In this document: positions 54,887 to 57,291 of the stretch, piece by piece
Layout: each line of letters opens with the position of its first letter
Numbering within the stretch: position 1 is the first letter of the stretch
Source: Lachnospiraceae bacterium
Lineage (GTDB): Bacteria; Bacillota; Clostridia; Lachnospirales; Lachnospiraceae
DNA: 57,414 nucleotides
Reading direction: 5' to 3'
Assembly (NCBI GenBank): GCA_017622795.1
Contig: JAGAQI010000133.1
Location: 1-57,414 of the forward strand
The notes under the pieces: model-generated
Database searches by the model: none
Told to the model about the DNA's origin: nothing
The model's input: only the letters and a program-made list of their open reading frames with translations
Translations under genes and position numbers: made by a program

Positions 54887-56938
54887 ATGAGAGAAGAGTG
54901 GAACAATTTTAACAGTGGTATCTGGGTAAAAGAAATTAACGTTCGTGATTTCATCCAGAAGAACTACACTCCATACGAAGGTGATGATTCCTTCTTATGT
55001 GATGCAACCCAGAACACAAAGGATTTATGGGCGCAGGTAATGGAATTAACTAAGGAAGAGCTGGCAAAGGGCGGTGTCCTTGATATGGATACCCACATCA
55101 TCTCTACTATCACTTCCCACGGTCCTGGCTATTTAAATAAAGATAAGGAAACTATCGTTGGTTTCCAGACAGATAAGCCATTTAAGCGTGCACTTCAGCC
55201 AAACGGCGGTATCCGTATGGCAGTTAAGGCTTGCGAAGACAACGGCTACACTGTAGACCCTACTATCGTAGAGTTCTATACAAAGCACAGAAAGACACAT
55301 AACGCAGGTGTATTCGATGCTTACACACCTGAAATGCGTGCCTGCCGTTCCAGCCACATCATCACCGGTCTTCCGGATGCTTACGGCCGCGGACGTATCA
55401 TCGGCGACTACCGTCGTGTAGCTCTTTACGGTGTAGACCGTCTTATCGCTGACAAGCAGCAGCAGAAGGCTACTACACGTAAGACAATGTACTCTGACGT
55501 TACAAGAAACCGCGAAGAATTATCCGAACAGATTCGTGCGTTAGAAGAATTAAAGGAACTTGGTAACATCTACGGTTTTGATATTTCCAGACCGGCGCAG
55601 AACGTACAGGAAGCTATTCAGTGGACTTACTTCGGTTACCTTGCAGCAGTTAAGGAGCAGAACGGTGCAGCTATGTCCCTCGGACGTACTTCCACCTTCC
55701 TTGACATCTATGCTCAGCGTGACCTTGCAAACGGCACTTTCACAGAAGAGCAGATTCAGGAATTCGTAGACCACTTCGTAATGAAGCTTCGTCTTGTTAA
55801 GTTTGCAAGAACTCCTGAGTACAATGCACTGTTCTCCGGTGACCCAACATGGGTAACTGAATCCATCGGTGGTATGGGTATCGACGGCCGTACACTTGTA
55901 ACAAAGATGTCCTACCGTTTTCTTCATACTTTAATTAACTTAGGTACCGCTCCGGAACCAAACCTTACCGTATTATGGTCCACAAGACTTCCTGAAAATT
56001 TCAAGAAGTTCTGTGCTAAGACTTCCGTTATCTCCTCTTCCATCCAGTATGAGAACGATGACTTAATGAGAGTAACTCACGGTGATGACTACGCTATCGC
56101 TTGTTGCGTATCCTCCATGAGAGTTGGTAAGGAAATGCAGTTCTTCGGTGCCCGTGCTAACCTTGCTAAGTGTCTCCTCTACGCTATCAACGGTGGTGTG
56201 GATGAAGTTTCCAAGAAGCAGGTTGGTCCTAAGTTCCGTCCAATCACTTCCGAATACCTTGACTTCGATGAAGTTTGGGATCGTTATAAGGATATGATGT
56301 GGTGGTTAGCAAAGGTATATGTAAATACCTTAAACATCATCCACTACATGCATGATAAGTACTGCTACGAAAGATTACAGATGGCATTACACGATAAGAA
56401 CGTAACCCGTTGGTTTGCTACCGGTATTGCTGGTCTTTCCGTAGTTGCTGACTCCTTATCCGCTATCAAGTATGCAAAGGTTAAGACAATCCGTGATGAG
56501 AACGGTATTGTTGTTGACTACGAAGTAGAAGGCGATTTCCCTAAGTACGGTAACGATGACGACCGTGTAGATGACCTTGCTTATGACTTAGTAAGCACCT
56601 TCATGGGTTATGTTGGCGGCGTTCACACCTACCGTGGCGGTATCCCAACCACTTCCATCCTTACTATCACTTCCAACGTAGTTTACGGTAAGAATACCGG
56701 TTCTACTCCGGATGGTAGAAAGGCCGGCGAACCATTCGCTCCAGGTGCTAACCCAATGCACAACCGTGATAAGAGCGGTGCTATCGCTTCCTTAAGCTCC
56801 GTATCCAAGCTTCCATTCAAGTATGCACAGGACGGTATTTCCAATACCTTCTCCATCATTCCGGATGCTCTTGGTAAGGGTGACGATGTATTCTTTGCAG
56901 GCGACGCTCTTAATGTAGACGGTATGCAGCTTGACTAG
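54887..56938 (+). CDS. pflB: Pyruvate formate-lyase large subunit lacking the glycyl-radical domain
   Basis: Converts pyruvate and CoA to acetyl-CoA and formate. The 683 residues correspond to E. coli PFL without its last ~75. The active-site cysteine pair is intact in AIACCVSS (C406, C407), and substrate-site neighbours such as [12 protein letters not shown] and [15 protein letters not shown] segments are present. The chain ends normally at [12 protein letters not shown]; the glycine loop RVSGYA is absent from it. Ordinary PFL is one chain of about 750-760 residues. The missing domain is encoded by the next gene, and together the two give 763 residues. AAAGGAG precedes the ATG. On its own this subunit cannot carry the radical. 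Confidence 0.93.
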
Positions 56939-56950
56939 TCTGGCAACGTC

Positions 56951-56979
56951 TTGACTTATTAAGCAATATCTAGTATAAT
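56951..56979 (+). promoter_or_regulatory. Consensus promoter for the glycyl-radical subunit gene
   Basis: TTGACT-N17-TATAAT lies between the large and small pfl genes, only 12 bases after the large-subunit stop. Five of six -35 and six of six -10 positions match. A hairpin (56985-56992 with 57011-57018) without T tract occupies the predicted start of transcript. It would allow the radical subunit to be made independently and in excess. Confidence 0.75.
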
Positions 56980-57048
56980 AAAATTCCACTCCGGACAATA
57001 TATAGTGTTTGGAGTGGATATAAAAGAAAAAATAAGGAGGAAACTATC

Positions 57049-57291
57049 ATGTCCGTTAGCGAAAATCAGATCGATAACTTAGTAAACATGCTCGATGCGT
57101 ATGTTGAAAAGGGTGGTCATCACTTAAACGTAAATGTATTTACAAAGGAAACTTTATTAGACGCTCAGGCTCATCCTGAGAAGTATCCTCAGCTCACTAT
57201 CCGTGTATCCGGATACGCTGTTAACTTCAACAAGTTAACAAAGGAGCAGCAGGACGAAGTTATCTCCAGAACTTTCCATGAAGGAATGTAA
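57049..57291 (+). CDS. Stand-alone glycyl-radical domain subunit of split PFL (GrcA/YfiD-like)
   Basis: An 80-residue protein equal to the C-terminal glycyl-radical domain of PFL. The radical loop reads [15 protein letters not shown] with the glycine at residue 55; [19 protein letters not shown] matches the preceding part of intact PFLs and the chain ends [11 protein letters not shown]. Compared with the spare-part protein GrcA/YfiD of enterobacteria, this one has no N-terminal extension and sits beside a PFL that lacks the domain, so it should be an obligate subunit. AAGGAGG is 8 bases before the ATG. Its C-terminal codons overlap pflA by 14 bases. Confidence 0.93.

Follow-up and report, generated by a model that had tools for sequence, protein, structure and literature searches.

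The locus raises the question of whether pyruvate formate-lyase (PFL) is made here of two proteins, a catalytic one that lacks the radical glycine and a small one that supplies it, or whether the small gene is a spare part for a full-length enzyme. In the window, the whole stretch of 57,414 nucleotides that was analysed, the two genes follow each other as pflB-L and grcA3. The protein encoded by pflB-L (54887..56938, plus strand; 683 aa) matched the formate C-acetyltransferase model TIGR01255 with 1093 bits, above the cut-off of 994.2, and PF02901 with an E-value of 3.4e-224; the TIGR01255 match covered model positions 2-665 of 744 and stopped before the radical-glycine region. Its cysteine pair C406-C407 (56102..56107, plus strand) was aligned with the catalytic C418-C419 of E. 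coli PFL, and R176, W333, C418, C419, F432, and R435 (E. coli numbering) did not vary in an alignment of 117 split and 40 full-length sequences. G734 was absent from pflB-L and from every aligned split sequence (n = 117), none of which carries the radical glycine in the same chain. The model match and the alignment bore out the original prediction of a 683-residue large subunit with an intact C406-C407 pair and no radical glycine.

The homology of pflB-L ended at DALGK, the LGK corresponding by our own count to E. coli residues 674-676, and was followed by a new, acidic, non-homologous tail of 19 residues without cysteines (56879..56935, plus strand), which belongs to a tail type found across the split clade; the tails of split large subunits had a median length of 25 residues and a usual form like EDQVFAGDLDVDL. 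The small gene grcA3 (57049..57291, plus strand; 80 aa; Gly55 codon at 57211-57213) was complete as predicted, starting with ATG behind its own ribosome site (TAAGGAGG) after a 110-bp spacer. Its product scored 170.5 bits with the GrcA3 model NF038360 (cut-off 158) and 99 bits with TIGR04365, the model of GrcA spare parts, against a cut-off of 170. It spanned positions 663-744 of TIGR01255, and its residues 10-80 were aligned with E. coli PFL 684-759, residue 10 being E. coli 684. As pflB-L stops at model position 665 and the small protein covers 663-744, the pair contains the parts of a PFL once. It had been claimed that both pieces retain the junction, and this did not stand: the end of pflB-L is the clade-wide tail rather than a copy of the start of the small subunit, so that a duplicated junction was rejected and the QLD/QID likeness looks accidental. 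Downstream, a gene found by motif for the radical-SAM activating enzyme, pflA (57278..57414, plus strand), is cut by the contig end, and its ATG overlaps the end of grcA3 (ATGAAGGAATGTAA), likewise at several relatives.

Upstream of pflB-L, a promoter-like site TTGACA-18-TATCAT (54773..54802, plus strand) matched the consensus at 11 of 12 positions, and sites with two mismatches or fewer were present within 300 bp upstream of pflB at 29 of the 31 loci printed. Another promoter-like site, TTGACT-17-TATAAT (56951..56979, plus strand; 11/12), lies in the gap between the two genes, was equalled in none of 100 shuffles of that gap, and possibly gives grcA3-pflA a separate transcript. A conserved promoter of grcA3 was considered and rejected: 31 gaps of at least 60 bp had on average 3.29 mismatches versus 3.62 after shuffling, and since the gaps of other loci were hardly better than shuffles, the site was kept as local to the window. 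The grcA3 leader also contains a 13-bp hairpin (56985..57018, plus strand) with a fold z-score of -2.31, which 4 of 200 shuffles equalled or surpassed, and no known RNA of Rfam was matched in 54300-57414 at the gathering threshold. On the minus strand upstream of pflB (49805-54567), five ORFs with no evident link to PFL were identified by reading, namely two membrane proteins (49805-51154 and 51154-52584), an ABC-type ATP-binding protein (52496-53434), a further membrane protein (53469-54335), and a small helix-turn-helix protein (54307-54567).

The same arrangement was found in a sister genome (G288) with 92.7% identity, where the dN/dS of the large gene was 0.046 and the small gene had a pN of 0.079 versus a pS of 0.883 with saturated dS, and both genes are, to judge from these ratios, under purifying selection. 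All of the 40 further split loci fetched likewise had a truncated PFL followed by a free GrcA3, the frame of the small gene relative to the large one being 0, 1, and 2 in 14, 14, and 13 of the 41 loci including the window, and the pflA motif occurred downstream in 34 of these 41 within the fetched flank. Although the source assembly consists of 147 contigs, of which the window is one, the start codon, ribosome site, and spacer of the small gene, the shared layout with random relative frames, and its occurrence in isolates and in a complete chromosome (e.g. Claveliimonas bilis) leave it virtually inconceivable that the two ORFs are one real gene broken by an assembly, sequencing, or recoding artefact. 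The split is conserved in the sister genome and at the 40 fetched loci, which upheld the reading of the locus as an evolved split instead of a simple stop or frameshift.

A second explanation holds that GrcA3 is only a spare, that the work is left to a full-length PFL encoded elsewhere, and that the truncated gene is decaying or auxiliary, as might be thought from the E. coli GrcA/YfiD, which repairs full PFL. In the source genome (86.6% complete), TIGR01255 and PF02901 each gave a single match, which was truncated and, for PF02901, was pflB-L itself, and PF01228 gave three matches, one in each member of the pair and a third on contig C71 whose C-terminus presumably belongs to an anaerobic ribonucleotide reductase. 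The sister genome G288 (97% complete) also had a single, truncated TIGR01255 match. The genome search proposed with the original prediction therefore returned no full-length PFL from either genome, and in the 86.6% of the source genome available a GrcA-type spare part would have no full-length enzyme to repair; a second PFL may be encoded in the remainder. Among split-PFL genomes, 66 of 69 had no full-length copy at E ≤ 1e-150, and the other three (G085, G119, and G132) held both forms, as a spare part would have it. Against those three stand the 66, the catalytic residues invariant in 117 split sequences, and the low dN/dS of the large gene, and the spare-part explanation is accordingly very improbable. 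We consider it very probable that the window pair represents two obligate subunits of one PFL, activity and activation in trans being extrapolated from E. coli, and the sequence evidence favours such a subunit over a spare part as the reading of GrcA3 here; the role first proposed for the radical piece thus found support in the 66 genomes and in the conservation.

Trans complementation has been described for the E. coli enzyme. In one report, truncated PFL (1-695) with YfiD had wild-type activity once activated, binding of YfiD to PFL cut at 695 was undetectable by ITC with a 32-fold lower radical yield, and residues 696-733 matter (PMC8683613); in another, a PflB G734A strain produced formate with GrcA and none without it (PMC12338860). 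These results make a trans enzyme from the split PFL plausible by analogy, and since the cut at 695 weakens YfiD binding and radical yield, a split enzyme would need compensations. The natural cut is located about 19 residues upstream of the end of the E. coli construct, which leaves the helix and the beta-10 strand on the small subunit, and natural GrcA3 brings its own equivalents of E. coli residues 696-733.

In the proposed mechanism, the large subunit would hold the pyruvate/CoA site and C406-C407, and GrcA3 would supply in trans the helix, the beta-10 strand, the glycyl-radical loop, and the C-terminal helix. GrcA3 would dock against the large subunit, the pflA product would put the radical on Gly55, and the radical would pass from Gly55 to C407 in each turnover. 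Upon oxygen cleavage at Gly55, an 80-residue part would be replaced instead of a 760-residue chain, and we infer that the split allows cheap replacement of the oxygen-fragile piece.

To describe the distribution, PFLs were counted at E ≤ 1e-150 and scored as truncated when the match ended at model positions 663-677; G157 (end at 535) was also scored as truncated on account of the GrcA3 frame and third ORF beside its match. Matches above the GrcA3 cut-off were present in 101 of 299 genomes of the family, a few of them inside frames of about 750 aa, which are full-length PFLs. In a biased sample of 70 genomes hand-chosen from those with a GrcA3 match, 42 had a truncated and 30 a full-length PFL, three of them both, and one neither (G022). 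A consecutive sample of 67 genomes taken regardless of matches (G134-G200), partly non-independent in that locus L251 (G164) looks like the same genome as the named locus L159, contained PFL in 54, of which 27 were truncated, 26 full-length (including the cut pieces of G182 and G199), none both, and one an undecidable fragment (G174). At 1e-40, 37 of 391 genomes of a class sample had matches, 23 of them in free frames of 78-106 aa and 17 of these in other families; all 19 of the class-sample loci examined apart from the window had a truncated PFL upstream.

Among named genomes, 78 of the best 80 loci by GrcA3 likeness among the matches listed were split, the exceptions being one where the contig ends (L171) and one with no PFL within 4 kb (L199). 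The latter, in an Anaeroplasmataceae metagenome-assembled genome, has a GrcA3-like gene and no PFL match in its 8.2-kb locus. These best 80 included Blautia, Lachnoclostridium phytofermentans, Lacrimispora, Claveliimonas, and Ruminococcus, as well as Collinsella aerofaciens, Olsenella, Slackia, Erysipelotrichaceae, and two Spirochaetota, so that the split PFL recurs in Actinomycetota and Spirochaetota. Two variations in gene structure were also observed. A pflA-like gene of 257 aa lies between truncated pflB and grcA3 at L059 (G130:C48:125500-130900), and the TIGR01255 matches of G061:C39, G042:C36, and G157:C54 are interrupted at about model position 536. In G061 and G042 the large subunit has 702 aa, about 20 residues extra, and an insertion at this point is suggested.

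The history of the split was assessed with a FastTree phylogeny of 157 PFL bodies, with tail and radical domain excluded and loci mostly gathered through GrcA3. The split/full label required four changes, compared with a mean of 36 after shuffling, and strongly supported branches forced only two. The main clade (support 99) united 113 split rows with five full-length rows, and a second small split clade consisted of L192, L206, L208, and L212. Nested in the large split clade were two full-length groups, one of L084, L227, L233, and L234 and the other of L082 (G096:C26:146735-149014), a 766-aa chain in which a cysteine-bearing segment (TCGCEEVTC) separates the body from the radical domain, as would be expected of a re-fusion. 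The topology suggests that the split is old and that the two nested groups have probably re-fused; repeated splitting is a possible alternative, since label counts cannot separate gain from loss. The position of coriobacterial and spirochaetal copies inside a firmicute clade further suggests lateral transfer.

Comparison of the split loci revealed a third part, a cysteine module that either forms the tail on the large subunit or is encoded by a separate ORF. Of the 116 split large-subunit tails, 55 contained at least two cysteines, 61 none, and none exactly one, and cysteine made up 4.4% of tail residues versus 1.2% of the body. A typical cysteine tail reads DCSNGACSTPTLFEGLD, and the spacing in the 55 was CxxxxC in 22, CxxC in 20, CxC in seven, CC in two, and other in four. 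Loci with a cysteine-free tail mostly had a gap of 200-450 bp before grcA3, holding an ORF of 47-110 aa with the pattern IDDLVxMLDxxMxxGGGHMNVxV ... DCxxGxxACxVPTLxEGxD and without the glycine loop; because the long gaps hold this ORF, their interpretation as leader RNAs was dropped. Per split row (n = 116), the module was a tail in 55, an adjacent ORF in 51, both in none, and neither in ten. The gap was shorter than 150 bp at 53 of 55 cysteine-tail loci versus 9 of 61 others, and on the tree the tail state changed 16 times. The possibility that the cysteine tail and the short gap are two distinct, linked traits was tried and rejected (independent-pairs test not significant, median p 0.219), and tail and gap ORF are better read as one module in two places.

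In profile comparisons, the C-terminal part of the gap ORF resembled the fused tail with E-values of 1.2e-10 and 9.2e-9 over 23-24 columns, scores flattered by the choice of rows with a clear motif, and its N-terminal 33 residues resembled the N-terminus of GrcA3 (E 9.6e-9). Of four gap-ORF members compared with NF038360, three matched with E-values of 7.1e-6, 3.2e-5, and 0.025 and one gave no match; none of the four scanned exceeded a curated cut-off in Pfam or NCBIfam, and two members searched against PHROGs gave one weak match (phrog_13865, function unknown; E 0.0047). The median dN/dS of the gap ORF was 0.15 over 19 pairs of roughly at least 60% identity and unsaturated dS, a filter that favours low ratios, and a Shine-Dalgarno-like word preceded 39 of 54 gap ORFs; on these two grounds the ORF was taken for a real gene.

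The module was also tied to the split state. In the consecutive sample, the 27 split genomes had an adjacent ORF in 19 and a cysteine tail in the other eight, whereas in the 26 full-length-PFL genomes no full-length ORF match occurred, any match being to the radical domain of their own PFL (for the ORF alone, Fisher p 2.4e-8, ignoring shared ancestry). Across the split rows the module was adjacent in 106 of 116, and searches of the nested full-length genomes G108, G252, G175, and G617 (71% complete) matched only their own PFL. Four of the ten rows without an adjacent module had a detached homologue elsewhere, in the source genome (C84), G288 (C10), G130 (C51), and G002 (C64), and for six none was found, these being the second small split clade (four genomes) and two Collinsella genomes, in which the search detected no detached module; the split may thus do without the module, or with one that escapes detection. 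The detached homologue of the source genome (C84:5182-5424, minus strand) encodes 80 aa with CPTC, scored 28.6 bits with A2, and adjoins a gene for a 454-aa membrane protein, a neighbour shared by the G288 copy (60% identity). This divergent gene is likely the module counterpart of the source genome, its link to PFL being drawn from homology. At L238-L243 (G196, G156, G160, G180, G193, and G184), another kind of orphan mini-protein was observed, whose N-terminus resembles that of GrcA3 and which bears YHHGRCDVGSPWAKG or a motif close to it; the two members scanned matched NF038360 weakly (E 0.02 and 0.07), and the one tried against PHROGs gave no match.

As for its function, three features suggest the radical-domain site as the location of the module, namely the half that resembles GrcA3, the placement behind the body, and the cysteine pairs; there it would sit in or beside the empty site and protect or re-reduce the catalytic cysteines. 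In class I ribonucleotide reductase, a C-terminal dithiol re-reduces the active site, and the C-terminal CESGACKI of E. coli NrdA shows a similar CxxGAC pattern, a short-motif likeness for which no homology is claimed; by analogy, the module may be a dithiol by which the catalytic cysteines stay reduced while the radical subunit is absent. We infer that it may act as a redox plug where the radical domain is missing. The alternative that it is a metal site (Zn or Fe), or an assembly or activase adaptor bringing PflA to the open enzyme, gains from the varied cysteine spacing among the 55 tails, from several modules with three or four cysteines (CACCEP), and from the pflA gene usually next door. 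The rule of at least two cysteines and never one in 116 tails better suits a dithiol, and the separate form starts with a GrcA3-like half that directs it to the radical-domain site; we therefore regard a metal site or adaptor as somewhat unlikely.

Some genomes have extra copies of grcA3. Of the 20 second copies fetched, seven adjoin a truncated PFL and 13 lack one within about 5 kb. Redox or Crp-type genes lie beside six of these 13 orphans (L097, L101, L105, L109, L112, and L113), and the other seven differ. The neighbours confirmed by Pfam were a Crp-type regulator (L097, L101, L109, and L113), thioredoxin (L097 and L105), rubrerythrin (L105), and desulfoferrodoxin (L112), with Crp-, thioredoxin-, and rubrerythrin-like ORFs also recognized at L112 by reading. 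The neighbourhood of these six copies could reflect production of the radical subunit on demand following oxygen stress; the source genome has only one GrcA3. We tentatively envisage a three-part machine of exchangeable modules, a durable catalytic body, a disposable radical subunit, and a cysteine plug, with the extra GrcA3 of the stress clusters as replacements. The plug would occupy the empty site with its copy of the GrcA3 N-terminal half and prevent oxidation of the catalytic cysteines pending the arrival of a fresh radical subunit.

Compared with known systems, the split PFL shares sequence relationship and active-site residues with E. coli PflB (PDB 1h16), which is a single chain, and differs from it in the separate radical-domain gene and the new tail after about residue 676. 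The best-scoring solved relatives of the large subunit were PDB 38la and 38lb, both named "Formate acetyltransferase", the latter with a CDMC pair in the tail of the aligned part. By sequence both look like large subunits of split PFLs; their chains were absent from the 34 small-subunit matches, among which there was no free GrcA3-type chain. NF038360 includes the small subunit under the name of autonomous cofactor, without the pairing with a truncated PFL or the cysteine module. In searches of an open-access library we found neither a description of an obligate split PFL nor the name GrcA3. Since GrcA3 has already been named and two large-subunit lookalikes are in the PDB, others have encountered the parts before; the most novel element is the cysteine module, whose scanned members belonged to no curated family.

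Many gut anaerobes thus seem to build PFL from two proteins, with the oxygen-fragile radical part small and replaceable, and most of them have the cysteine-pair module. If about half of the PFL-bearing genera of the family use an obligate two-part PFL, the name "autonomous cofactor" conceals that the small gene encodes an essential subunit, and if obligate this gene should be handled as essential in metabolic modelling and in knock-out screens. The module is a new testable component, closely tied to the split state, for the protection of an anaerobe's radical enzyme from oxygen, and if the three-part reading is true, obligate anaerobes have turned enzyme repair into enzyme architecture. The free radical domain working in trans with PflA is what the system has in common with GrcA/YfiD (PDB 6owr) and its phage relatives. 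YfiD, in which some 60 residues at the N-terminus are disordered, rescues full PFL that oxygen has cut, whereas GrcA3 begins with the helix that precedes beta-10, and the PFL it serves always lacks a radical domain of its own. In a phage collection, radical-domain-like coding was observed in 1538 of 50,697 records (tblastn, E ≤ 1e-5).
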